Assembly: GCA_028722305.1 (NCBI GenBank)
Contig: JAQYHB010000001.1
Span: 1-64,000, forward strand
Source: Spirochaetales bacterium
GTDB lineage: Bacteria; Spirochaetota; Spirochaetia; Sphaerochaetales; Sphaerochaetaceae
Direction: 5' to 3'
DNA: 64,000 bases
Shown: positions 39,988 to 53,091 of the stretch, in pieces
Layout of the letters: every line of letters starts with the position of its first letter
Position numbering within the stretch: the stretch's first letter is position 1
Position numbers and translations under genes: made by a program
The notes under the pieces: model-generated
What the model saw: only the letters and a program-made list of their open reading frames with translations
Database searches by the model: none
Told to the model about the DNA's origin: nothing

Positions 39988-40194
39988 TCAGTTCTCTTTG
40001 ATACCGTAGCGCTTGTTGAATCTCTCGATACGGCCGGCCGTGTCAACAACCTTCTGCTCGCCAGTGTAGAACGGGTGGCAAGCGGAGCAGATTTCAACCT
40101 GCAGGTTCTTGGCAGTGGTCTTGGTCTTGATCACGTTGCCACAAGAGCAATGGATCTCACGAAGCTGATAATCGGGATGAATACCTTTCTTCAT
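39988..40194 (-). CDS. rpmE: 50S ribosomal protein L31
   Basis: The protein has 68 residues, the zinc-binding (C+) type L31 with Cys16, Cys18, Cys36 and Cys39 (HCSCGN and [10 protein letters not shown]). MKKGIHPDY is the classic N-terminus. GGAGGAC precedes the ATG. It follows rho by 56 bp and shares its transcript, the usual rho-rpmE pairing. A 7-bp hairpin lies between the two genes. Confidence 0.95.
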
Positions 40195-40218
40195 AATCGT
40201 CCTCCAACTCTATGTACA

Positions 40219-40239
40219 TCTGCTGGATAGTGCAGCAGA
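40219..40239 (-). promoter_or_regulatory. Hairpin between rho and rpmE
   Basis: TCTGCTG/CAGCAGA is a perfect 7-bp stem with a 7-nt loop and no T-run after it. It is probably an mRNA processing or L31 feedback site rather than a terminator. Confidence 0.4.
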
Positions 40240-40250
40240 CACATTTCTCA

Positions 40251-42041
40251 TCACCCCTGCGTATTGATGGAACGCAGGAACGCCTCATTATCTTTTGTCT
40301 TCTTTATTTTGTCAATGAGGAACGGGGTGACCTCCTGGTCGTCCATATCCCCCACCGCCTTGCGGCAAAGCCAGATCTTGGCGGCCTCATCGGCAGGAAG
40401 CAACAGATCATCACGGCGGGTACCGCTCTTCTTGATATTCATGGCCGGGAAGATACGCCTGTCGGCCAGCTTCCGGTCAAGGATGATCTCGCTGTTGCCT
40501 GTACCCTTGAACTCCTCGAAGATGACCTCGTCCATACGGCTGCCGGTCTCGATCAGGCCGGTGGCGATAATGGTGAGGGATCCGCCCTCCTCGATGTTGC
40601 GGGCGGCGCCGAAGAAGCGTTTGGGCTTGTGCAGCGCGTTGGAATCGACACCACCGGAAAGGATCTTGCCGCTGGCGGGGACAGTCTGGTTGTAGGCACG
40701 CGCAAGGCGGGTGATGGAATCAAGCAGGATGACCACATCCTTCTTGTACTCAACCAGCCGCTTCGCCTTCTCTATGACCATCTCGGCGACCTGGACATGG
40801 CGGCTCGCCTGCTCGTCGAAAGTGCTGGCAATCACCTCGCCCTTGACGTGGCGGCGCATGTCGGTAACCTCCTCGGGACGCTCGTCGACCAGCAGCACGA
40901 TCAAGACGATATCCGGATAGTTGGTGGTAATCGCGTTGGCGATCTTCTGCATCAACACCGTCTTGCCGGTACGCGGGGGAGCGGTAATCAGCAGACGCTG
41001 ACCCTTGCCGATTGGGCTGAACATGTTGATGATGCGTAGCGACACATCTTCCTCCGGAGTCTCCAGATTGATTCTCTCGTTGGGGAAGAGCGGAGTCAGA
41101 CTCTCGAACGGAGCGCGGACACGCGCCTTGACCGGATCCTCCCCGTTGACCGACAGCACCCGGAGGATGGCGAAGAAACGCTCGCCGTCACGTGGAGTGC
41201 GGACCTGTCCGAAGACGGTATCGCCCGTCTTCAAGCCAAGGCCTTTGACCTGTGCGGGGGACACATAGATGTCCTCCGGACCGGAGAGATAGCTGTTGTT
41301 CGGGCTTCTGAGGAAGCCGAAGCCGTCAGGCAGCACCTCAAGAGTACCGCTGCCGGTAATCACGCCCCCGGCCGCGGAGTGCTTCTTCAGGATCTCGGCA
41401 AGGATCTCCTGATTCTTCATGTCCAGCACGCGGTTCTCGTCCAGCCCCCTCTCCACGCCGATCTTGCGGATCTGGTCCTGGGGAAGGCAGGCATAGGCGT
41501 TGACGTTGAGCACCGGAGCTTCAGGATGCTCCTCGATATTGATGTCCTGGGGATATTCGTTCTGCTGATGACGGTTCGGCCGCTGGCTGTTGATGTTGGA
41601 GCTGTTGGCGTTTTTCTGGAAGCGCTGGCTGTGGCGTCCCTGGCGGTTGTTGAACCGGCGGTTCCGGTCGAAATCGCGGCGGCCACCCTGTTTCTGCTCG
41701 CCAAAGCCTTCAGCTAGCGGTTCCTCTTGGTTCCGGGACTCGCTTCCCTCGCCCTGCTCCTGTGCCCGGTACTCTTCGGTACCCCCCACCTCTGCTTTTG
41801 GTTCCTCAGGGCGCTGTTCGGGCTGAGGTTCCGAAACCACCGGCGGCTGTTCGATGGCAGGGGCTGATTCCGTCGGCGCCTCTAGAGAAGCAGCTTCTGG
41901 CGCTTGCTCTACCACCTCCGGAGCTTTCGCCTTCACGGCAAGAGCTTTTCGCGGGCGGCGAACCCGGCGTACGACAGCCTTTTTCTCGACCGGCTGGGCG
42001 GGGGTTTCCACCTTTACTGCTTCTTCTTCATTGTCAGACAT
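40251..42041 (-). CDS. rho: Transcription termination factor Rho
   Basis: The protein has 596 residues, longer than the usual 420 because of an N-terminal insertion. Residues about 1-170 are low complexity: first Glu/Pro/Ala-rich, then Arg/Asn/Gln-rich ([20 protein letters not shown]). The RNA-binding cold-shock-like domain follows ([16 protein letters not shown]), then the ATPase with Walker [15 protein letters not shown], Walker [17 protein letters not shown] and the Q-loop/R-loop region. It forms a hexameric RNA helicase that ends transcripts. A consensus promoter about 110 nt upstream leaves a long leader suited to autoregulation. Confidence 0.96.
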
Positions 42042-42159
42042 GTAGTATTTACTCCAAGAAAACCCAATTGGTACTGGGAAGATTCACATTTCATAGTGCG
42101 GGAAATAGTGTTTCGACAGTTTTCTACGTTCACGAATGCAACTGTCTTAGATATCAACC

Positions 42160-42188
42160 ACTATAGTAACACGCAAATCCCGTGTCAA
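42160..42188 (-). promoter_or_regulatory. Promoter of rho
   Basis: TTGACA (42188-42183), a 17-bp spacer and TATAGT (42165-42160): the closest match to consensus in the window. The predicted leader before rho is about 110 nt. Confidence 0.75.
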
Positions 42189-42210
42189 GCAACTCGTTAT
42201 ATATTCTACA

Positions 42211-42236
42211 CAAACCGGCACCCGAAGGTACCGGCA
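42211..42236 (-). terminator. Terminator of the rpsT-HU-lnt transcript
   Basis: CCGGTACC pairs with GGGTGCCGG on the minus strand around TTC, followed by TTTGTG. It lies directly after the lnt stop codon. Confidence 0.65.
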
Positions 42237-42243
42237 TATCGAG

Positions 42244-43887
42244 TCATCGCTGCTTCCTACGGGTGACGATGGTACGGACAAGGCCGACGACCAGCGAAAG
42301 GACGGAAACCCAGATGGAGAGATAGGCAAGCCAGTCGCCATAGCGGGTATAGATCGTCTCGGCGTGAGCGGAAGAGAAATAGACGGGAACATCGAAGATG
42401 TGCCACAACGCCTTGAACAACGGCAAATCGTCATGGATCTGCCCGTCTGGGGTGATGTAGCAGGAAAGTCCGCTGTTGGTCGAGCGGATCATGGTACGGC
42501 GGTTCTCCACCGAACGGTAGATCGCCATGACCCCATGCTGGATCTCGCTCGCCTCGCTCTGCGACCAGTTGTCGTTGGTCATGTTCAACAGCACGTCGGC
42601 GCCCCCCCGGACGAACTCGGCGTTCAGGTCCCCGAAGACATCCTCGAAGCAAATCGGAGTGGAGAACTTGATACCGTCGCTCTCGAAGACGACGCTTTCC
42701 GTTCCGGTCAGCCACCAGTGGTAGTCGTTCGCCTTCAGGATATTGTACAGATGCGGCATCGTCTTCTCGTAGGGGAAGTGCTCGGTGAACGGCACCAGGT
42801 GCTGCTTGCGGTACGTCTGCTTGATCTGTCCGTCGTCGAACATGATGATCGTGTTGTAGTCATCACGGTTCCACTCTCCATCCTCGAGCTCGGGAGGAAG
42901 CGAGGGGTCGGCAAGGACTCCCTCCGGATTGCCGGTAATCAGAGGGACGCTGAGCTCCTTGCCGAAGTTGACGAACTCCTCCACCAGCGCGCTGGTGTCA
43001 GGATCGGTAGGATAGTTCTCGTGCCAAGCCACCGACGGGACAAATGCGGTCTCGGACCATACCAGGATGTCCGGGTTCTTCGTCATCGCCTCAAGGCTCA
43101 TTTTGCGGAGATTGTTGAAATTCCGCTTGTAGGTGGTGTAGCCGCCTTTCCAGGAATTGGCGTTATGCTGGACGACGGCCACCTTCCAAGTGCGGTCAGG
43201 CGTCATGCGCTTCCAGTGCTGCCAGCTGACCGTTCCGAGGACCAGCCACAAGGCGAAGCCGACGGCATAGGCGATCGCCCAGACCCTGCGGTCCCTCAAC
43301 CACCCCTTCAGGCTTTCCCTGCGGGCCAACGGCATGGCGAGGAAGGCCTGTGGCATGACCACAAGCAGGTTGACACCCCAGATACCGGTGATCGAGGCAA
43401 TCTGCACCAGCGGAAGATAGTTCCACAACGCGTAGCCGATCGTCCCGTAAGGATAGCCGGCGAACCAGCTCTGGCAGAGATACGAGTAGGCGGTCCAGAT
43501 GAAGGCCTGCACAAGCCAGCTCCACTTCTTGCACCAACTGTCAGCCATTTTCAAACAAGGGAAAAGCAGCGCCATCTCCCCGCCTTTGATGATCGTGACG
43601 ATGAAGATCGCAAGCGGGTGGAAGTTCCTAAGCCAGTAGTTGAAGAACAGGTAGAACATGAACCCGTAGAAGAAGCCGTAGAAAGGAGTGGCCGCCGGAC
43701 GGGTACGATGGATGACGACAAATACCGGAACCAATGCGATGAAGGCGAGGAAACCGAATCCGCTCTTCGAAAGAAAGCCTGGGAACGCCAGGGAAAGGAC
43801 GAAAGAGCTGGCCAATAACAACAGAACCTCAGAACAATATGTTCCAAGGTTCCGCTGTTTCTTTCCGTTGTCCGTCTGCTGAACCAC
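42244..43887 (-). CDS. lnt: Apolipoprotein N-acyltransferase
   Basis: The protein has 547 residues. About seven N-terminal membrane segments (residues 20-230) precede a nitrilase-like domain with the catalytic triad Glu (VWSETAFVPS), Lys (YRKQHLVPF) and Cys (TPICFEDVFG). One membrane segment closes the protein. It adds the third acyl chain to lipoproteins in the inner membrane, which fits the several lipobox proteins in this window and a diderm envelope. It is 2 bp downstream of the HU gene, last in the rpsT-HU-lnt operon. Confidence 0.94.
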   Translation of the reverse strand: MVQQTDNGKKQRNLGTYCSEVLLLLASSFVLSLAFPGFLSKSGFGFLAFIALVPVFVVIHRTRPAATPFYGFFYGFMFYLFFNYWLRNFHPLAIFIVTIIKGGEMALLFPCLKMADSWCKKWSWLVQAFIWTAYSYLCQSWFAGYPYGTIGYALWNYLPLVQIASITGIWGVNLLVVMPQAFLAMPLARRESLKGWLRDRRVWAIAYAVGFALWLVLGTVSWQHWKRMTPDRTWKVAVVQHNANSWKGGYTTYKRNFNNLRKMSLEAMTKNPDILVWSETAFVPSVAWHENYPTDPDTSALVEEFVNFGKELSVPLITGNPEGVLADPSLPPELEDGEWNRDDYNTIIMFDDGQIKQTYRKQHLVPFTEHFPYEKTMPHLYNILKANDYHWWLTGTESVVFESDGIKFSTPICFEDVFGDLNAEFVRGGADVLLNMTNDNWSQSEASEIQHGVMAIYRSVENRRTMIRSTNSGLSCYITPDGQIHDDLPLFKALWHIFDVPVYFSSAHAETIYTRYGDWLAYLSIWVSVLSLVVGLVRTIVTRRKQR

Positions 43888-43889
43888 GC

Positions 43890-44207
43890 TCAGTTCTCCT
43901 CGTGGTTCCGAAGATTCCAGACATAGTCCTTCAGCTCTTTTCCCGGGCGGAAAATAGCCACGCCATGCGTTGAGACCGAAACAATCTCGCCAGTCTTCGG
44001 ATTACGGGCTTTCTCCCTCCCCTTGCGGGTACGGACCTCGAAGGTGCCAAATCCTCTGAGCTCTATGACCTGGTCGTTTTTCAGGCCTTTCTTCACTTCC
44101 TCAAAAAACTCGTCAATGATCAGATGGATGTCATTGCGGTTGAAACCATGAGTCTCGTGAAGATTCTCAATAATGGTAGCTTTGGTAAGCTTATTGGAAT
44201 CTGCCAT
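43890..44207 (-). CDS. hup: HU/IHF-family DNA-binding protein
   Basis: The protein has 105 residues with the HU fold: TKATIIENLHETHGFNR, then VIELRGFGTFEVRTRKGREK and RNPKTGE with the DNA-intercalating proline, and ending FRPGKELKDYV. It bends and compacts DNA. The C-terminus has about 10 residues more than E. coli HU. It lies between rpsT and lnt on the same strand. Confidence 0.93.
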   Translation of the reverse strand: MADSNKLTKATIIENLHETHGFNRNDIHLIIDEFFEEVKKGLKNDQVIELRGFGTFEVRTRKGREKARNPKTGEIVSVSTHGVAIFRPGKELKDYVWNLRNHEEN

Positions 44208-44224
44208 GACCTACTCCCCAACCG

Positions 44225-44527
44225 TTAATTCGCAGCCTGAGCAGGAGCAGCTTCCTTCGGTGCACCGGCGACCAGCTTGTTGTAGTGTCGAGTAAGGCGG
44301 GACTTCTTGCGGTCAGCGGTGTTGCGCTTCAGGGCATTCTTACCGACAGCGGAATCGAGCAGCTTCACGGCAAGCGCCAGCTTGGTGGCAGCCAGTTCCT
44401 TGTCACCTGCGGCGACAGCAGCGCTGAAGCCCTTGCAAGCGGTGCGGACAGCACTCTTGGTCTCACGATTTCTCTCTCTGCGCACAATGTTCTGGCGTGC
44501 TCTCTTCTCTGCAGACCGATTTCTCAT
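44225..44527 (-). CDS. rpsT: 30S ribosomal protein S20
   Basis: The protein has 100 residues. It has the usual S20 features: RSAEKRARQNIVRRERNRE at the start, KLLDSAVGKNALKRNTADRKKSRL in the middle and a short Ala-rich tail (KEAAPAQAAN). It binds 16S rRNA in early assembly. TTGGAGG precedes the ATG. It is first in the rpsT-HU-lnt operon behind a TTGACC-17-TATGTT promoter. Confidence 0.95.
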   Translation of the reverse strand: MRNRSAEKRARQNIVRRERNRETKSAVRTACKGFSAAVAAGDKELAATKLALAVKLLDSAVGKNALKRNTADRKKSRLTRHYNKLVAGAPKEAAPAQAAN

Positions 44528-44615
44528 CCTAGATCCTCCAACACTGGAAAAACCAATGTATTTCTATTTGGTAGTTTTCTTTATTTGTAATCAGCAAATT
44601 AACTGACGGCTTAAC

Positions 44616-44644
44616 AACATAGCACAGACTATAAAACGGGTCAA
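44616..44644 (-). promoter_or_regulatory. Promoter of rpsT-HU-lnt
   Basis: TTGACC (44644-44639), a 17-bp spacer and TATGTT (44621-44616). Confidence 0.65.
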
Positions 44645-44665
44645 TACAATGCTTTATTGAATTTT

Positions 44666-45799
44666 TTATTCTTTACCGAAGAGCTCGTCCACGTACTGTC
44701 GGGAAATCTCCCACCGTTTCGTATCTTCCTTATATACGCAGGCACTCGCTGGTATGGTCAGCACTCGCCCTTCGCTTCCGCTCAAGGTCAGCTGCTTGGA
44801 AAGGATGTTCACCTCCGACACCTTCATCAGCTCGTCACCCAACTTCAGCCTGCTCCCTTCCTGCGGGTACTTGGCCTTTTCCTCGGCGTAGAAGTCGTAC
44901 TCGAATGCCAGGCAGCAGAGCAAGCGTCCGCAGGGACCGGAAATCTTCATCGAGTTGAGCGAAAGATTCTGCTCTTTCGCCATCTTGATTGAAACCGGAT
45001 TGAGCTTGTCCGTCATGGCATGGCAACAGAAATCACGGCCGCAGATGGCGAGCCCGCCCAACACGCGGCTCTCGTCACGGACGCCAATCTGGCGCAACTC
45101 GATACGGATGCGGAAGACGCTGACCAGGTCCTTGACCAGCTCGCGGAAGTCGACACGGACGTCGGCAGTGAAGAAGAAGAGGATTTTCGGCTCACCCAGC
45201 AGGAAGTGGGCTGTGACCAGCTTCATGTCCAGTTTGTGCAGAGCAATCTTCTCGCGGCAAATCCGCATCGCCTCCTCTTCTTTTCCAGAGAGCTCCTGGT
45301 AGCGGGCCAGATCGCTCGGCGTGGCAAGGCGGACAATCCACAGGGAATCCCCCGACAGCTTCACCTTTTCCGGATCCTTTTGCTCGGTGCACATCTCGCA
45401 CTCGGCGCACTCGTCGACGTCAGGATCCTCGTTCCAGATGATATCATCCACCACAGGATTCCCGTCCGGTCCAGGCTCGCCACTGGCAACCAAAGGCTGG
45501 TCGTCGACCGTCTCGACCGGTTCCTCATCCTCGGCGCGGCAACGCGCGCAGGCTCCACGGATATCGGTCGACCCTGCCTGATAGGGTTTCCCTATCCGTG
45601 AGGCGTCGGCAACAACGATGCCTAGGTCCAGGCCATAGCGCGTCGGCATGACGACGCTGATGCCCGGGTAGAGCATGCTGTCCCACGCGCAGACGGAGAG
45701 CTCGTTGCTGGAAGGGTTTTTCACCAGATAGATGTAACCACTATCCGGATGATTGCTATGTGTCTGTCCTCCATCAGGACGATACTGTTCTTTTCTCAT
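44666..45799 (-). CDS. PSP1-domain protein (RicT/YaaT-like), cysteine-rich
   Basis: The protein has 377 residues. The PSP1 domain at residues about 170-290 contains the hallmark ILFFFTADVRVDFRELVKDL, GIRDESRVLGG-like GVRDESRVLGGLAICGRDFC, and GPCGRLLCCLAFEYDFY. In Bacillus, RicT with RicA/RicF binds Fe-S clusters and controls RNase Y. An extra Cys-rich insert (CARC near residue 84, CAECEMC near 132) could bind metal. An in-frame GTG upstream lies within the -10 box (TTGACA-17-TAGGTT), so ATG 45799 is the likely start: 8 nt after the -10 and without Shine-Dalgarno, hence leaderless. Confidence 0.88.
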   Translation of the reverse strand: MRKEQYRPDGGQTHSNHPDSGYIYLVKNPSSNELSVCAWDSMLYPGISVVMPTRYGLDLGIVVADASRIGKPYQAGSTDIRGACARCRAEDEEPVETVDDQPLVASGEPGPDGNPVVDDIIWNEDPDVDECAECEMCTEQKDPEKVKLSGDSLWIVRLATPSDLARYQELSGKEEEAMRICREKIALHKLDMKLVTAHFLLGEPKILFFFTADVRVDFRELVKDLVSVFRIRIELRQIGVRDESRVLGGLAICGRDFCCHAMTDKLNPVSIKMAKEQNLSLNSMKISGPCGRLLCCLAFEYDFYAEEKAKYPQEGSRLKLGDELMKVSEVNILSKQLTLSGSEGRVLTIPASACVYKEDTKRWEISRQYVDELFGKE

Positions 45800-45807
45800 A
45801 TGAGAGA

Positions 45808-45836
45808 AACCTAGCACGACAATGTCGATTTGTCAA
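45808..45836 (-). promoter_or_regulatory. Promoter of the PSP1 (RicT-like) gene
   Basis: TTGACA (45836-45831), a 17-bp spacer and TAGGTT (45813-45808), ending 8 nt before the ATG. Confidence 0.7.
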
Positions 45837-45879
45837 ACCTACTTCGCGTAACTGTTTTTCCAGATGGAAGTTAGCATGT

Positions 45880-45909
45880 TTGACCAAGTCATTTGGAGCA
45901 TGGTATATT
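45880..45909 (+). promoter_or_regulatory. Promoter of dus-purD
   Basis: TTGACC (45880-45885), an 18-bp spacer and TATATT (45904-45909), ending 11 nt before the ATG. Confidence 0.65.
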
Positions 45910-45920
45910 TTGCATCAATC

Positions 45921-46919
45921 ATGAAGCAACCGTACATCCGGCCCTTCCAGGTGGGAAGCGCCGTACTGCAAGGCAACCTGTTCCTCGCCCCTATGGCGGG
46001 ATATACCGATATCCCCTTCCGCTCGCTGTGCATCAAACACGGGGCGGACCTTACCTATACCGAGATGGTCAGCGCCGAGGGGCTCTACCGCGACAGCGAC
46101 AAGACCGAAGAGCTGATGGAGCGGGCGCCCAACGAACGGAACTATGTGGTGCAGCTCTTCATGGGAAGCCTCGGCCCCATCGAGAAAGCGGTGGAGAAGA
46201 TCATTCCCTACCACCCGGTGATGATCGACATCAACGCCGGCTGCCCGGTGCCCAAGGTAACCCGTACCGGAAGCGGATCTGCGCTGATGAAGGATCCGGA
46301 ACTGGCCAGGCAGATGGTAAAGCGGATCACGGAGCTGACCGACATCCCCGTATCCATCAAGTTCCGCCTCGGCTGGGACAACCAGTCGGTCAACTTCCTG
46401 GAATTTGCCGACGCCGTCGCCATTGGAGGAGCCAGCGCCATGGCGCTCCATACCAGGACCCGCACCGAAGGATACGCCCCCTACGCCCACCAGGAACGGC
46501 TGAAGGAGCTCTGTGATTTCCGGGCAGGCCACTGGCCCCAGGTGCGCGTCATCGCCAGCGGCGACCTTTTCACGGCTTTGGATGTCATCAGGGTGCTGAA
46601 GACATACGAGGTCGACGCGGTCATGGTGGCCCGTGGTGCGATCGGCAACCCCTTCATCTTCGAGGACGCCAAGGCGCTAGGCGAAGGAAAGGAACCGATG
46701 CCTCTGACAACCGAGCGCCGCATTCAGGCGCTGATGGAGCATCTGGAGGCCACCATCGAGAAATATGGGGAACGGAGCGCCTGCCACCAGATGCGCAAGT
46801 GCGCCTCCTTTTACCTGCGCGGCATGCAGGGGGTACGCGAGGCGAAACAGGCATTCAACACCACCGAAACGAGGGCGGATTACGCCCGGATTTGCGCAAG
46901 GTTGACGAGCGCAAATTGA
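45921..46919 (+). CDS. dus: tRNA-dihydrouridine synthase (Dus)
   Basis: The protein has 332 residues: an FMN-binding TIM barrel (NLFLAPMAGYTDIPFRSLC), catalytic Cys in DINAGCPVPKVTRTGSGSAL, then KFRLGW, HTRTRTEGYAP, IASGDLF and ARGAIGNPFIF. A C-terminal helical tRNA-binding domain follows. It is closest to the DusB type and reduces uridine in the tRNA D-loop. The frame is open 19 codons further up, but that part overlaps the promoter. ATG 45921 lies 11 nt after the -10 with no Shine-Dalgarno. A PurD-like gene follows 28 bp downstream. Confidence 0.93.
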   Translation: MKQPYIRPFQVGSAVLQGNLFLAPMAGYTDIPFRSLCIKHGADLTYTEMVSAEGLYRDSDKTEELMERAPNERNYVVQLFMGSLGPIEKAVEKIIPYHPVMIDINAGCPVPKVTRTGSGSALMKDPELARQMVKRITELTDIPVSIKFRLGWDNQSVNFLEFADAVAIGGASAMALHTRTRTEGYAPYAHQERLKELCDFRAGHWPQVRVIASGDLFTALDVIRVLKTYEVDAVMVARGAIGNPFIFEDAKALGEGKEPMPLTTERRIQALMEHLEATIEKYGERSACHQMRKCASFYLRGMQGVREAKQAFNTTETRADYARICARLTSAN

Positions 46920-46947
46920 TGGTGGTACGTTTGACACGAGGGTACGT

Positions 46948-48207
46948 ATGAGAGTATTAGTCCTTGGATCCGGAGCCAAAGACCATGCCTTGGCATGGTG
47001 GCTTTCCCGCAGTCATTTCATTGAGGATTTGTATGTCGCTCCCGGCAACTATGGTACCGAAGCGCTCGCCATCAATCTTGACATCGATTCTGAGGACTTC
47101 GAGCAAGTCTATCAGGCCTGCCTCGACCACCACATCGACTTTGTCTTCATCGGCACGGAGCAGCCGCTGTTCAGCGCGATGGTGGACAAGCTCACCGAGA
47201 AGGGAATCGAATGCTTCGGTTGCCCAAGCAAGTCGCTGAAGCTGGAGGGGGACAGGGACTTCGCCCGCGCTTTCACGGACCGTCACAACATCCCTACCCC
47301 GAGCCACAAGCTTTTCAGTGACCCCCAGACGATGGAAGCCTTCCTGCTACGCCACAGGGGGCAACGGCTGGTCATCAAGAGCAAGGGACCGGCTCCGAGC
47401 AGGATGATGATCGACTCGGCAGACACCCAGCAGCTGATTGCCTTCGGCAAGGAGTTGCTCAATCGGGGCGACATCCTGGTCGAGGAACATCTTGGCGGCC
47501 TTTCCCTTTCCGTCACCGCTCTGGTGGACAACAAGGGATACCTGCTGCTTCCCTTCTCCAGCGACTACTCCAAGACCCAGCACGACGAGGGTATCCCCAC
47601 CGGAGGCATGGGCGCAATCTGCCCGGTCCCCATCAGCGAGGAGTTGCGCCAGGAGCTGGTCAACCGGATCATCGACCCGACCATCTACGGCATGCGTGTC
47701 GAGAAGCTCACCTACCATGGGGTACTCACCTTCAGTGTGATCCTTTCCAAAGACGGCCCGATTCTGGTCGACTACCACGTGCGTTTCAATGATCCATCCA
47801 CCCAAGCGATCATCCCGCTAATCAAGAGCGATGCTCTGGATATCATGTACGCGATGGAGCACGACAACCTGGAAAGCTACCAGTTGAATGTCTCGACCCA
47901 AAGCACCGTCGCCATCGTCATCGCCAGCAAAGGGTATCCGCAGGCTCCCGAGATCTGCAAAGCGCTCGATCCGCTTCCTGCCTACATGCAACTCAACTCC
48001 TTCAGGGATGAACCGCAGGTCTTCTTCGGAGCTGTCGAGAAACATGACGGACAACCGATTACCGTCGGCGGCAGGCCAGTGACCATCGTCGGCAAGGGTG
48101 AGAACATCAACATGGCCAATAAGAACGCCTATGCGAAAATAGACAAGATCCACTTCGAGGGCTCTTGGTACCGTCAGGACATCGGAGAGCGGTTCTTGGA
48201 GAACTGA
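46948..48207 (+). CDS. purD: PurD-like ATP-grasp protein (phosphoribosylamine-glycine ligase family), divergent
   Basis: The protein has 419 residues with PurD domain order: N-domain VLVLGSGAKDHALAWWL (canonical GSGGREHALAW), APGNYGT, FIGTEQPLFSAMVD (canonical GPEAPL), then CFGCPSKSLKLEGDRDFA, ATP-grasp and C-domain. Several active-site motifs differ: the ATP loop KADGLAAGKGV is VIKSKGPAPSRMM, the metal motif LEFNVRFGDPE is LVDYHVRFNDPST, though PTGGMGAICP is kept. It may be a diverged working PurD or an ATP-grasp ligase with another substrate. It is co-transcribed with dus and ends in a strong terminator. Confidence 0.75.
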   Translation: MRVLVLGSGAKDHALAWWLSRSHFIEDLYVAPGNYGTEALAINLDIDSEDFEQVYQACLDHHIDFVFIGTEQPLFSAMVDKLTEKGIECFGCPSKSLKLEGDRDFARAFTDRHNIPTPSHKLFSDPQTMEAFLLRHRGQRLVIKSKGPAPSRMMIDSADTQQLIAFGKELLNRGDILVEEHLGGLSLSVTALVDNKGYLLLPFSSDYSKTQHDEGIPTGGMGAICPVPISEELRQELVNRIIDPTIYGMRVEKLTYHGVLTFSVILSKDGPILVDYHVRFNDPSTQAIIPLIKSDALDIMYAMEHDNLESYQLNVSTQSTVAIVIASKGYPQAPEICKALDPLPAYMQLNSFRDEPQVFFGAVEKHDGQPITVGGRPVTIVGKGENINMANKNAYAKIDKIHFEGSWYRQDIGERFLEN

Positions 48208-48226
48208 GAGAAAGCTCCAGACATTC

Positions 48227-48262
48227 AGCCCCTGATATGCCTGGCACGTCAGGGGCTCTTTC
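48227..48262 (+). terminator. Terminator of dus-purD
   Basis: AGCCCCTGA (48227-48235) pairs with TCAGGGGCT (48249-48257), loop 13 nt, followed by CTTTCG. It lies 20 nt after the stop codon. Confidence 0.7.
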
Positions 48263-48353
48263 GTAGTTCTTGTCGTGTGCCACCGTTACAAGGGCCACCA
48301 AGGAAAACGTACGGATAAGAGGTTGGCGCCCTTTTCCCTTCAGGATAACAGAT

Positions 48354-49097
48354 TCAATGCTGTCGGCGGAACTCGTAGAGCAGGATACCCGTGGCGACCG
48401 ATACGTTGAGCGAGTCGATATGGCCGCGCATCGGAATCGAGACGATTTCGTCGCACAGCTTGCGGGAAAGCTCACGGATTCCGCTACCCTCACTACCCAT
48501 GATGATGGCGGTCCTCTGGGGGAATGTAATCTCGTAGCTGTTCGTACCTGACATATCCGCGCCATAAATCCAGAAGCCGGCTGCCTTCAGTTCCTTCACC
48601 TCGCGGCTCAGGTTGGTAACCACCGCCATCGGCACATACTGGGCGGCTCCGGAAGAAATTTTGGTGACCGTCTCGTTTGCCTGGGCGCTGCGCCTTTCAG
48701 GAACAACCACAAGGTCGACACCGAACTGGTCGGCGCTACGAAGAATCGCCCCCAGATTGTGCGGGTCGGTAATCTCGTCGAGCAACAGGACCAGGGCGCC
48801 CTGGCCCTCCTTCAGGTTGGAAAGGAACTCGCTGACCGTTGTGACGATCAACCGGCTTCCCCCCCTGCGCGCCCCACCAAGGTCAAGCACGACGCCCCGG
48901 TGATCCACACCTGGCATCATGCGGTCCATTTCCTGGGGAGAAAGTTTCTTGATGGCGATCTTTCCGGTCAGCATCGCCTGTCTCTCAAGATCGGAGTAGC
49001 TTTTCCCGACCCCGCGGGAAACATAGAGCGTCGAGCCCATCGGGGCCTGCTTGATACCCTCTTCAATCGCGTGCTTGCCGTACATCTTCTCGCCCAT
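48354..49097 (-). CDS. rlmB: 23S rRNA (guanosine-2'-O)-methyltransferase, RlmB/SpoU family
   Basis: The protein has 247 residues. The N-terminal substrate-binding domain begins MYGKHAIEEGIKQ. The SPOUT knot follows with motif 1 LLDEITDPHNLGAILRSADQ, motif 2 IIMGSEGSGIREL and motif 3 SIPMRGHIDSLNVSVATGIL. RlmB methylates G2251 of the 23S rRNA P-loop. It is the last gene of the grpE-dnaK-dnaJ cluster, 14 bp after dnaJ, an association not explained by chaperone function. Confidence 0.92.
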   Translation of the reverse strand: MGEKMYGKHAIEEGIKQAPMGSTLYVSRGVGKSYSDLERQAMLTGKIAIKKLSPQEMDRMMPGVDHRGVVLDLGGARRGGSRLIVTTVSEFLSNLKEGQGALVLLLDEITDPHNLGAILRSADQFGVDLVVVPERRSAQANETVTKISSGAAQYVPMAVVTNLSREVKELKAAGFWIYGADMSGTNSYEITFPQRTAIIMGSEGSGIRELSRKLCDEIVSIPMRGHIDSLNVSVATGILLYEFRRQH

Positions 49098-49111
49098 CTC
49101 GTTTCTCCTCG

Positions 49112-50260
49112 TTATTCGTTGACATCTCCCTCGTAGGGAACTGGTTGCGGTCTATCGTTCTCACCCATAGCCTCAGCCAGTTGCTTCATCAAACCACGGG
49201 CTTTCAGGCCAAGGTGCTTCGGGGTATCCACCTGGATGCGCAGATACAAATCGCCACGATCAGTGCTGTTGAGCTTGGGAGCTCCCTGTCCGCGGACCCT
49301 CAGCAGCTTTCCGCTCTGAGTCCCGCCCGGAATGGACACCTTGAGTTCCTTGCCATCCACACTGGTGATGATGATATCGGCGCCAAGCGCAGCCTGGGTG
49401 AAACTGATCGGCACCTGCAGGTAGAGATCCGCGCCCTGACGGACAAAATACTTGTCCGGCCTGACCGAGATGAAGACTACCAAATCACCGCTCGGACCTC
49501 CGTTGGCTCCCGCGTCTCCCATGCCACGCAACGTGACCCTGTTGCCGTTATCCACGCCGGCAGGAATGGTGACCCTCAGTTTGGTCTGCTTGCGCTTCAA
49601 GCCGGAGCCATGGCAGTCCGGGCAAGGATGGTCGATGACCTGGCCCTTACCGCCACAGGTGGGGCAGGTCGTCGCCACGGTGAAGAAGCCGCTGTTCCTG
49701 CGTACCTGTCCGCTTCCGCCACAAGTGGGGCAGGTCTTGGTCCCGGTGCCGTCGGCGGAACCGGAACCATGGCAGGTGTCGCAGACTACCTGATGGATGT
49801 ACGAGACATCCACCTTGGTGCCAAACAGCGCATCCTTGAAGTCCAGCGTCACGTCATAGCGCAAGCTCGAACCCTGGCTGGGGCCGCCGCTACGGCGGGC
49901 ACCACCCTGGCCACCCATGCCGCCACCGAAAAAGGAACTGAAAATGTCCTCGAACCCGCCACGGCCTCCGAAAATATCGGAGAAGTCCTGATAGACATGG
50001 GAATAGTCGTGTCCCATACCACCGGCCCCATCGATACCGGCAAAACCGTACTGGTCATAGGCCGCTCGCTTCTTCTCGTCGCTGAGGACTTCGTAGGCCT
50101 CGGTGGCTTCCTTGAAACGGGCCTCGGCCTCCTTATCACCAGGGTGGGTATCCGGGTGATTGGCCAAAGCCAGCTTGTGGTATGCTTTCTTGATCTGCTC
50201 GGGAGTAGCGTCTTTGGCAACGCCGAGCACTTCATAATAATCTCGTTTCGTCTCTGCCAT
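49112..50260 (-). CDS. dnaJ: Chaperone DnaJ
   Basis: The protein has 382 residues. The J-domain is at 1-70 with the HPD motif (ANHPDTHPGD), followed by a Gly/Phe-rich linker (FGGRGG, FFGGGMGGQGG), four zinc-finger CxxCxGxG repeats (CDTCHGSG, CPTCGGSG, CPTCGGKG, CPDCHGSG), and a C-terminal substrate-binding domain. It stimulates DnaK ATP hydrolysis and delivers substrates. The start at 50260 follows GAGGA. It is separated from dnaK by an 84-bp gap with a 14-bp perfect hairpin. Confidence 0.96.
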   Translation of the reverse strand: MAETKRDYYEVLGVAKDATPEQIKKAYHKLALANHPDTHPGDKEAEARFKEATEAYEVLSDEKKRAAYDQYGFAGIDGAGGMGHDYSHVYQDFSDIFGGRGGFEDIFSSFFGGGMGGQGGARRSGGPSQGSSLRYDVTLDFKDALFGTKVDVSYIHQVVCDTCHGSGSADGTGTKTCPTCGGSGQVRRNSGFFTVATTCPTCGGKGQVIDHPCPDCHGSGLKRKQTKLRVTIPAGVDNGNRVTLRGMGDAGANGGPSGDLVVFISVRPDKYFVRQGADLYLQVPISFTQAALGADIIITSVDGKELKVSIPGGTQSGKLLRVRGQGAPKLNSTDRGDLYLRIQVDTPKHLGLKARGLMKQLAEAMGENDRPQPVPYEGDVNE

Positions 50261-50277
50261 AGGAAAGTCCTCAAACA

Positions 50278-50314
50278 CACATCATGTCGGCTTTTTCGGG
50301 GCCGACATGATGTG
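50278..50314 (-). terminator. Strong hairpin between dnaK and dnaJ
   Basis: CACATCATGTCGGC and GCCGACATGATGTG are a perfect 14-bp stem with a 9-nt loop. On the minus strand it is followed by TTTGAGGA, only about 15 nt before the dnaJ start. It probably acts as an attenuator, a 3' stabiliser of dnaK mRNA or a processing site. Confidence 0.65.
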
Positions 50315-50344
50315 ATGCTATTGCATTGTAGCAAAAAGCCGGAA

Positions 50345-52291
50345 TCAGTTCACGACCTCATAGCCGGCGTCATCAGGACCTGTACCCTGATGGGTCGTCG
50401 GACCACTGGTCGCACCGCCCTGGGCCCCACCGTTAGTGGAACCACCCTGAGCGCCGCCGTTCTGATTGTTGGCACCTGCATGCTTGTAAATCTCCTCGGC
50501 GAGCTTGTAAGAGGCTTCCTGCAGAGCCTGGGTCTTGGCCTTCAGCTCTTCGGTAGAGGCGGAGCTGTTGGAGAGCGTGCTCTTCAAATCGGCAATCGCC
50601 TTCTCGATCTTGGCCTTGTCGTCAGCAGAGATCTTGTCGCCGTAGCTCTTCAGCGACTTCTCGGTGCTGTACATCATGGTCTCTGCGTTGTTGCGCGCGT
50701 CCACCTTCTCCTTGGCCTTCTTGTCCTCGTCGGCGTGGTCCTTGGCTTCCTTCACCATGCGGTCGATCTCCTCATCGGAAAGTCCGGAAGAGCTCTCGAT
50801 CTTGATATGGGCTTCCTTGCCGGTACCGGTGTCCTTTGCAGAAACATGGACGATGCCATTGGCGTCGATATCGAAGGAGACCTCGATCTGCGGGACTCCG
50901 CGCGGAGCAGCCGGAATCTGATCCAAGGTAAAGGTGCCGAGGACTCTGTTCTGGGCAGCCATCTCACGCTCACCCTGCAGGACCTTGATGCCGACTTCGG
51001 TCTGGCCATCAGCCGCAGTAGTAAAAATCTGGCTCTTGTGGGTCGGAATCGTGGTGTTGCGAGGAATCATCTTGGTGCAGACGCCACCGAGGGTCTCGAT
51101 ACCCAAGGAAAGCGGAGTGACATCAAGCAGGACGACGTCCTTGACGGTTCCACCAAGAATACCACCCTGAATGGCGGCGCCCATGGCGACTACCTCATCC
51201 GGGTTGACACCCTTCATCGGCTCCTTGCCACCGAACATCTCCTTGACAGCTTCCTGGACGGCGGGGATACGAGTCGTACCTCCAACCAGAATGACCTCGT
51301 CGATATCGTGGATCGTCAGGCCGGCATCACGCAACGCGTTGGTGACAGGACCACGGCTACGCTCGACCAGGTCGGCGGTCATAGCCTCGAAGTGGGCTCT
51401 GGAAAGGTCCATCTGCAGGTTCAACGGGCGATTGTCCTTGTTGGCGATGAAGGGCAGGCTGATGGTGTAGTTCATCGTGCTGGAAAGGGCAATCTTCGCC
51501 TTCTCCGCCTCTTCCTTCATTCTCTGCAGGGCCATGGTATCATCCTTCAGGTTGATGCCATACTGCGCCTTGAACTCCTCGTTCATCCAATCGATGATCT
51601 TCGCGTCGAAGTCATCACCGCCAAGGTGGGTATCACCGTTGGTGCTCTTGACCTCGAAGACACCGTCACCGAGCTCCAGGATGGAGACATCGAAGGTGCC
51701 GCCGCCGAAGTCATAGACAGCGATCTTCTCTTCCTTGTTGGTCTTGTCCAAACCGTAGGCCAGAGCGCTTGCGGTCGGCTCGTTGACAATACGCTTCACA
51801 TCAAGGCCGGCAATCTTGCCCGCGTCCTTGGTGGCTTGGCGCTGAGCGTCGTTGAAGTAGGCGGGAACCGTGATGACCGCTTCGGTCACCGGCTCCTTCA
51901 GATAGGCTTCCGCGGCCGCCTTCATCTTCTGAAGGATGGCAGCGGAAATCTGCTCCGGGGAGTATTCCTTTCCCTGGGCGACGACACGGACATAGCCCTG
52001 CGCGTCGCTAGTCACCTTATACGGCAGTCTGCCCAGCTCCTGCTGGACATCAGCGTCCTGATATTTGTGACCCATGAAACGCTTGATCGAATAAATCGTG
52101 TTCTCGGCATTCGTGACCATCTGGTTCTTGGCCGGCTGACCGACAAGCTGCTCGCCCTTGTCGGTAAAAGCCACAATGGACGGCGTCGTGCGGGCGCCAT
52201 CGCTGTTGATGATGACGTGAGGTTCGTTACCCTCCATCACCGCGACACAACTGTTGGTCGTGCCAAGGTCAATACCAATAATCTTTCCCAT
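50345..52291 (-). CDS. dnaK: Chaperone DnaK (Hsp70)
   Basis: The protein has 648 residues. The ATPase signatures are [28 protein letters not shown] and [14 protein letters not shown], followed by the linker [15 protein letters not shown], the substrate domain and helical lid. The tail is Gly/Asn/Thr-rich with repeats (NGGAQGG-type units) and ends YEVVN. It folds nascent and stressed proteins with GrpE and DnaJ. It has its own promoter overlapping the grpE stop codon. A 7-bp inverted repeat (CCGATAA/TTATCGG) lies in its leader. No CIRCE element is visible. Confidence 0.97.
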
Positions 52292-52355
52292 ATCTGTATC
52301 TCCTCAAATTCCCGATAATTTCAAAAGTTTTTCTGTTCCTTATCGGAACGTCTGT

Positions 52356-52384
52356 AACATACTCACGCTTGGCGCAATCGTCAA
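52356..52384 (-). promoter_or_regulatory. Promoter of dnaK
   Basis: TTGACG (52384-52379, overlapping the grpE stop codon), a 17-bp spacer and TATGTT (52361-52356). The segment GTGAGTATGTT is identical to that in the grpE promoter. Confidence 0.65.
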
Positions 52385-53091
52385 TTGGAAGGTTGACCGA
52401 CCACCACTTTTGCGGGGCGGATTACCTTGTCCCCAAGCAAATATCCGGACTGATAGGTCATCGTGACCGTCTTGTCCTTGTACTTGTCGTCCTTGACCAC
52501 CTGCAACGCCTCGTGACGGGACGGGTCGAACGGTTTGCCGTCGGTCTCCATTTTCTTCAGGCCGAACTGGCCGGCAAGGTGCTGGTACATCTTGTCATTG
52601 ATCATCTGCACGCCCTCGAGCATCTTCTCGAAGTCCTTAGACTGGTCCTCTTTGCCTGCCTGCAAGGCGCGTTCAAAATCATCAAGGGTCGGAAGCAGGT
52701 CCTTCAGGATCTTCTCCTTGGCCCTTTCGATTTCCATCGCGGTATTGCTCTGCATGCGTTTCATATCAGCGGCCATCGTGGATGCGTAACGCTGCATGCT
52801 GGCGTATTTGTCCTGCCAATCCTGCACCTTGTCGTTGAGCTGGCTGATTGTCTGTGAATCATGCACGCTCTTTTGGTCGGCTACCGAAAGCTGGGCCTGG
52901 AGCAACGCCACCTGCGCCTGAAGCGCAGCAATCTGCTCCTGAGGGGTCGGTTCCTTCTTGACTTCTTGGGAATCCTTCTGCTTCTCAGCGGGTTCAGCCT
53001 GAGCCTCCGGCTTTTTCGGGGTCTCCTCCTGTTTGCTCGATTTCTCGGCTTCCTTCCCGGAGTCCTCGTGGTTGTTCACGTTGATTTTCAT
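52381..53091 (-). CDS. grpE: Nucleotide exchange factor GrpE
   Basis: The protein has 236 residues. The first about 75 residues are charged and disordered (Lys/Glu/Pro-rich). A long coiled-coil helix follows, then the conserved beta-domain starting AMEIERAKEKILKDLLPTLD and ending SGYLLGDKVIRPAKVVVGQP. It releases ADP from DnaK and can act as a thermosensor. GTGAGGA precedes the ATG. Its leader carries a GC-rich stem-loop that begins about where transcription should start. Confidence 0.94.
   Translation of the reverse strand: MKINVNNHEDSGKEAEKSSKQEETPKKPEAQAEPAEKQKDSQEVKKEPTPQEQIAALQAQVALLQAQLSVADQKSVHDSQTISQLNDKVQDWQDKYASMQRYASTMAADMKRMQSNTAMEIERAKEKILKDLLPTLDDFERALQAGKEDQSKDFEKMLEGVQMINDKMYQHLAGQFGLKKMETDGKPFDPSRHEALQVVKDDKYKDKTVTMTYQSGYLLGDKVIRPAKVVVGQPSN

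Follow-up and report, generated by a model that had tools for sequence, protein, structure and literature searches.

Does a protein that belongs to the PurD family by sequence and by fold still act as PurD when much of its active site has been replaced? The question is posed by a PurD-like protein (ex-PurD) of 419 amino acids, encoded at 46948–48207 on the forward strand of the window, the 64,000-nucleotide stretch of a Sphaerochaetaceae genome analyzed here. Its reading frame runs without an internal stop, and the ATG is preceded at a distance of 5 nt by a Shine-Dalgarno-like GAGGG (46938–46942, +) that is presumably functional.

By sequence family, the protein would be assigned to PurD (phosphoribosylamine--glycine ligase, GAR synthetase, EC 6.3.4.13): it matches TIGR00877 (purD) with 337.7 bits against a curated cut-off of 288, and it contains the Pfam domains GARS_N, GARS_A and GARS_C in that order. 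Automatic annotation would name it purD. An AlphaFold2 model computed from 53 alignment rows (mean pLDDT 93.2, pTM 0.91) predicts a complete PurD fold with its three domains (N, ATP-grasp A and C). When the model was compared with PDB chains, 13 GAR synthetase entries were matched with Z scores of 47.1–54.9 and 28–33% identity, the top match being the A. aeolicus enzyme (PDB 2YW2, Z 54.9). The fold is that of the ATP-grasp superfamily, which the protein also shares with PurT, biotin carboxylase and PurK; these form the next structural group at Z of about 28–30, but with 10–14% identity among the matches listed, and the window protein is far nearer to PurD. The likeness to PurD extends to TGGMG, Arg279, RxDIG and further conserved positions, all of which are retained in the window protein and its clade.

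The active site departs from this likeness. For A. aeolicus PurD, PMC8880213 describes ATP as contacted by Lys103, Lys143, Glu185, Glu192 and Lys214, glycine as contacted by Asp212, Arg287 and Glu292, and the metals as recognized by Glu100 and Lys214. These nine contact residues, the loop G150-K151-G152 and the pair Glu283 and Asn285 (A. aeolicus numbering) make up the 14 positions that we compared. All 14, including the nine charged contacts, the G-K-G of the loop and the Glu/Asn pair, are identical across 66 of 66 other PurDs. Among the 32 members of the clade to which the window protein belongs, 9 of the 14 are altered in at least 27, some of them to one fixed new residue. Glu283 and Asn285, which we take to be Mg-binding, have become Asp and His in all 32 members; Lys103 is replaced by Arg in 27 and kept as Lys in 5; within the loop, G150 has become Ser in 32 and K151 Arg in 30 (Lys in 2). 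Lost altogether are Glu192 and Lys214 (at least 31 each), Glu292 (32) and the loop residue G152 (at least 29), and the losses of Glu192 and Lys214 have no single fixed replacement residue. Kept are Glu100 (31), Lys143 (32), Glu185 (30) and Arg287 (32), while the counterpart of Asp212 is Asp in 17 members and Glu in 15. By these roles, the window protein retains counterparts of Glu100 (metal), of Lys143 and Glu185 (ATP; here Lys144 and Glu179), and of Asp212 and Arg287 (glycine; here Asp206 and Arg279). Six of its nine charged ATP, Mg and glycine contacts are thus kept or conservatively swapped, and three (Glu192, Lys214 and Glu292) are lost; each of these three is missing from 31 or more of the 32 clade members.

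Five motifs of the protein differ from those of other PurDs; they were read directly in the 32 tree rows and in further loci rather than in all 129 genomes that carry a clade member. The window protein has GAKDHA (residues 9–14; 46972–46989, +) for GGREHA; K11 is shared by all 31 clade members compared and D12 by 30 of them, at positions where 62 other PurDs have at least 90% R and E. GTEQPL (residues 69–74; 47152–47169, +) stands for GPEAPL, with T70 in 31 of 31 clade members, and EGDR (residues 100–103; 47245–47256, +) for EGSK, where R103 is the counterpart of the ATP lysine K103 of the A. aeolicus enzyme (PMC8880213). The glycine-rich ATP loop AAGK(G) is replaced by APSR (residues 149–152; 47392–47403, +), with S151 in 32 of 32 and R152 in 30 of 32 members (K in the other 2). 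Finally, E[FY]NxR[LFM]GDPE has become DYHVRFNDPS (residues 275–284; 47770–47799, +), in which D275, H277 and R279 are each present in 32 of 32 members and position 284 is A in 29 and S in 3. Of the 32 clade members, 30 match the form DYHxR[FL]NDP[AS], as do 0 of 66 other PurDs; the core R[LFM]GDPE is present in all 66 of the latter and in none of the 32. The GAR synthetase signature PS00184, as quoted in a passage of PMC3261824 (R[LF]GDPEx[EQIM]), is found in its strict form in no clade member and in 50 of 66 other PurDs. Read as longer strings, the protein has GAKDHALAW, GTEQPL, KSKGPAPSRMM and DYHVRFNDPS; the changes listed at the outset (KDHALAW, GTEQPL, the PAPSRMM loop and D-Y-H-x-R-F-N-D-P-S) are therefore all present, and their clade-wide fixation shows that they are not noise.

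A wider comparison took in the 74 positions of the whole protein at which 62 other PurDs show conservation of 90% or more. In 31 clade members, 38 of these positions are kept, 12 are switched (another residue at 90% or more in the clade) and 24 are relaxed. Charge is preserved at 5 of the 12 switches (R to K, E to D, K to R twice, and E to D). K144, S151, D275 and H277 do not vary among the 32 members, and position 152 is basic in all of them. We take the five charge-keeping switches and the four invariant residues as pointing to a working site and not to a decaying one.

Tree placement and gene order both bear on where the protein came from. A first tree, built from 98 PurD proteins, has all 32 clade members as a monophyletic group (support 100) on a stem of 0.71 changes per column, joined to 12 native spirochaete PurDs (99). 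A second tree of 83 rows recovers the clade (99/92), the clade together with two homologs from the genus g22 (100/99), and the clade, the g22 homologs and the 12 spirochaete PurDs as one group (98/92). The native spirochaete PurDs (L109–L118, L120 and L128) are the closest outside relatives of the window protein, with 33–40% identity, and they commonly share its rlmB neighbor, but all 12 are canonical at all 14 positions and have adjoining purine genes. All 12 also carry KK[SN]G just before the ATP loop, where KADG is found in 25 of the 33 non-spirochaete PurDs listed. Together, tree placement and synteny point to vertical descent of the window protein from the native PurD of spirochaetes, and a horizontal origin was rejected on the same grounds. 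Within the family, 15 of the 16 canonical PurDs placed in the trees group with an Oscillospiraceae sequence (100 and 100/99), which suggests that some Sphaerochaetaceae lineages regained PurD from Bacillota.

The genes in the window are ordered ricT, dus, the PurD-like gene, rlmB, dnaJ and dnaK. A ricT-type gene (44666–45817, −; NF041131, 248.7 bits) diverges from dus (45864–46919, +), which encodes a DusB-type tRNA dihydrouridine synthase (TIGR00737, 282.4 bits, just under the cut-off of 293.3) and ends 28 nt before the ATG of the PurD-like gene on the same strand. An in-frame ATG within the dus frame lies at 45921 and, since a promoter-like pair (45880–45909) falls inside the stretch 45864–45921 (+), the real dus start may be 45921. 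On the other side, rlmB (48354–49097, −; TIGR00186, 219 bits), the gene for a 23S rRNA methyltransferase, is convergent, and dnaJ (49112–50278, −) and dnaK (50345–52291, −), both named by sequence reading rather than by a model scan, are conserved neighbors further on. The arrangement recurs across the clade: among the genes tested, the nearest one upstream on the same strand is dus in 44 of the 55 loci that have over 1.2 kb of upstream DNA, and the nearest one downstream is a convergent rlmB in 37 of the 54 that have over 1 kb on that side. No purF, purM or purN was found in any of the 61 clade loci read. Rfam gave no match at 40000–53000 of the window, promoter and terminator scans gave results near chance, and neighbors beyond the dus-rlmB site provided no functional hint; dus and tatD themselves, as neighbors, offer no metabolic hint.

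The native spirochaete purD loci show what may once have stood at this site. The order purM-purN-purD is present in 12 of 12, and purF precedes it in 10; it is missing upstream in L111, and L117 has little upstream DNA. The full series tatD-dus-purF-purM-purN-purD facing rlmB is seen in three (L110, L113 and L115), tatD without dus in another three (L116, L120 and L128), and neither gene within the DNA read in six. Downstream, rlmB follows purD in 8 of 12, with dnaJ-dnaK behind it in 6 of 12. The dus-bearing ancestral order is thus one that we infer from part of the native loci. The earlier note had placed the gene with dus and away from purine genes, which is correct at the window locus, yet dus directly precedes purF-purM-purN-purD in 3 of the 12 native loci.

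Of the partner genes of the purine pathway, purF and purM were looked for in the genome. The window genome is a 2.7-Mb draft that is 95% complete, and the clade gene is its only PurD-type gene over the cut-off. No purM candidate was found in this draft, nor was a purF over the cut-off: the best match reaches 95.7 bits against 350 and covers residues 1–209 only, inside a 635-amino-acid frame that we take, from its size and position, for a glmS-type protein. A second canonical purD, for which a search had been proposed at the outset, is absent over the cut-off here, and a duplicate was rejected as an explanation, the sole other TIGR00877 match (26.7 bits) being another ATP-grasp protein. Such a gene does exist in the sister genome G001, where a canonical purD (512.7 bits) is accompanied by a clade member (327.5 bits). 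In G001 the purM and purF matches (C7:49350–51754) are split over several separate open frames, which would be either broken genes or assembly errors, and the clade member is one open frame. The genome of the window also encodes, at L068:1700–2950 (+) on its contig C9, a 416-amino-acid ATP-grasp protein whose best NCBIfam match is 43.9 bits, far under the cut-off.

Across the family, we searched with the profile A1, which was built from 30 clade members and separates them from canonical PurD by score. A clade member is present in 129 of 139 Sphaerochaetaceae genomes and 19 of 22 genera, some as fragments at contig ends; an order-level search returned the same 139 genomes. When only the 75 genomes with completeness of 90% or more and contamination of 5% or less are counted, 71 have one, the exceptions being G024, G116, G136 and G138; in G116 and G024 the contig ends beside dus, so that the absence may be an assembly gap. 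A clade member beside dus was not seen in G028, G098, G130, G134 and G137. The cultured Bullifex porci NM-380-WT-3C1 carries a clade member (L103), and its genome gave no purM match. PurM is over the cut-off in 53 of the 139 genomes and purF in 50, all among the same 53. Clade members occur in 78 of the 86 genomes without purM over the cut-off and in 51 of the 53 with it, leaving eight purM-less and two purM-bearing genomes in which none was seen; most genomes are drafts, and the Fisher test of this association ignores kinship and is descriptive only. The rest of the class behaves differently. In a control sample of 392 genomes of the phylum, 178 belong to the same class outside the family, and 127 of these have a strong purD (E 8.5e-50 or better), accompanied by purM in 126 (the exception is G292). 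The other 51 have weak or no purD, and purM was found among them only as weak matches in G482 and G493. Of the 52 purM-less genomes in these 178, 51 are also without a strong purD. A purD-type gene kept without purM is nearly confined to Sphaerochaetaceae in our sample.

One rival reading is that the gene is a decaying relic without function, to which the absence of purF, purM and purN from all 61 clade loci might seem to lend support. We regard it as highly improbable, and decay was rejected on the substitution pattern. The Nei-Gojobori dN/dS is 0.056 between the window gene and a 94%-identical relative, 0.058 in another close pair, and 0.075 and 0.222 in two wider pairs; these are the 4 of 7 pairs with estimable dS, the other 3 being saturated and their ratios unusable. 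There is no stop inside any clade match listed, and the gene persists, fixed residues included, in 19 of 22 genera. The clade gene is under strong purifying selection.

Nor is the selected function likely to be the ancestral one. We hold with high confidence that GAR is not a product of this protein any more, given that purF and purM are missing and that the residues for ATP, metal and glycine have changed. Very probably it does not serve de novo purine synthesis, since it is the only PurD-type gene of a 95%-complete draft in which neither partner was detected. Where function is concerned, the differences from PurD comprise the signature (R[LFM]GDPE absent in 32 of 32), the GKG loop, the Glu/Asn pair, the charged contacts Glu192, Lys214 and Glu292, and the partners purF and purM. 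A fast-diverged but working GAR synthetase could point to its score over the TIGR00877 cut-off, to the full three-domain fold with Z of 47.1–54.9 to 13 PDB entries and to the 38 of 74 conserved positions kept, but it would have neither a PurF-made substrate nor a PurM step in this genome, purM-bearing relatives such as G001 hold a canonical PurD in the same genome, and 9 of 14 active-site positions have changed; we consider it improbable. The earlier note had left the choice between a ligase acting on some other substrate and a PurD that had diverged strongly, and the answer is divided: PurD stands by descent, as tree and synteny indicate, and GAR synthetase function has very probably been lost, given the altered residues and the lack of purF and purM. 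Nor does the situation named there as contrary, the only purD of a purine prototroph, describe this genome, where the gene is the sole PurD-type gene over the cut-off and neither purF nor purM was found in the draft.

We propose that the ancestor was the GAR synthetase of spirochaetes, inherited vertically as purD. In the simplest account, purF, purM and purN would have vanished from between dus and purD in an ancestor of the Sphaerochaetaceae by a deletion, and purD stayed. The gene left behind may then have been recruited to another use, its active site being rebuilt (the AAGKG loop to APSR, the Glu/Asn pair to Asp/His) and subsequently fixed. The descendant that we judge most likely, at roughly even confidence, is an ATP-grasp ligase that would still bind nucleotide and metal, in an altered geometry, and would activate a carboxylate other than glycine and join it to an amine other than phosphoribosylamine. 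It might share its expression with dus and serve the family in a core role. Three features make us lean toward a ligase on another substrate: charge is preserved at 5 of the 12 switches, the Arg that binds the carboxylate does not vary, and Glu292 is gone, which would open up room and take away the assumed partner of the glycine amine. The disappearance of Glu192 and Lys214, with no fixed residue in their place, tells against a ligase, as it could mean that ATP is not used at all. This same loss, with that of the glycine-rich loop and Glu292, argues for a non-catalytic descendant (pseudoenzyme), a sensor or partner that would bind an amino acid or a phosphoribosyl compound through the Arg279/Asp206 pocket. 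A complete predicted fold would suit such a binder, as would the still more altered g22 homologs, in which the counterparts of Arg279, Asp206, Glu100 and Glu179 persist and D275/H277 have become N/K; the fixed ATP and metal end of the site (K144, S151, D275 and H277 invariant, position 152 basic in 32 of 32) is harder to reconcile with it, since a pure binder would not obviously need it. We regard the pseudoenzyme as a serious possibility, although one we would bet against. Were the proposed ligase correct, the clade might represent a new enzyme family, a core one in Sphaerochaetaceae, that arose after pathway loss from the last gene of a purine operon, with an Asp/His metal site and an APSR phosphate loop, and that catalyzes an ATP-grasp ligation unrelated to purine synthesis and new among described families; this broader claim we put forward tentatively, with somewhat less than even confidence.

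The nearest published parallel that we found is provided by two extra PurD-like proteins of haloarchaea, rrnAC0307 and Hlac_1553, which the relevant passage of PMC3261824 judges not to be actual GAR synthetases. As described there, these proteins lack residues of the metal site and signature, both of which are also altered in the clade. The same passage has them lacking the conserved Asp of R[LF]GDPE and GARS_N, whereas the window protein keeps the Asp and all three domains, and has them occurring beside a presumed true PurD in two archaea. In the literature searched (open-licence papers, best matches only) we came across no paper about such a protein from Sphaerochaetaceae. Among 80 records retained out of at least 272 matching places, the named ones that share the motifs come from spirochaetes (Sphaerochaeta sp. 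S2, Bullifex porci, Pleomorphochaeta sp., Sphaerochaetaceae bacteria and many uncultured organisms). The NCBI purD model matches all 30 members of A1 (E up to 1e-10), and databases likely carry the family as purD, a label that would mislead metabolic models of these spirochaetes. A plasmid search matched 63 records; among the best 5 of these 63 the top identity was 34.5%, and four were annotated purD.

The locus seems to offer a clean example from nature of an enzyme that has outlived its pathway. Chromosome comparison reveals which genes are missing, sister lineages still have the ancestral enzyme, and the site appears to have been rebuilt and then frozen, so that the gain of a new enzyme function after pathway loss is directly testable. 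As a widely kept protein of the Sphaerochaetaceae, it is also a good target for finding new biochemistry.

Several relatives deserve mention in their own right. The g22 homologs, L196:5183–6463 (−) and L197:6931–8274 (−), come from the 1.2-Mb genomes G136 and G138 and carry the motifs SSGMGA and NMKTR[FL]SDPS; their counterpart of Lys144 is L/I in one alignment and K in another. No dus or rlmB match was found in the 12–14 kb read around them, and no homolog stands next to the dus genes of these genomes. A third type of PurD, 676–757 amino acids from stop to stop, occurs in the Sphaerochaetaceae genera g6, g12, g19 and g20 (L057:4687–6957, −; L058:5422–7449, +; L059:923–2965, −; L072:5079–7199, +). 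It is fused to a PurN-type formyltransferase domain in the three scanned, has canonical active-site residues, sits on a long branch (1.93) in the tree, adjoins purF in 4 of 4 loci and lies near purM on the same contig in three. A local BLAST of L200 had raised the idea that this type had lost its ATP loop, which was rejected, as all four are canonical in full alignments. The earliest branch among the 32 clade members in the tree is L100:369–1616 (+) from Spirochaetia bacterium CSBr16_92, which scores 376.6 bits against TIGR00877 and carries the motifs GAKEHA and KRNGLATSREM; it may represent an intermediate state, useful for tracing the order of the changes.
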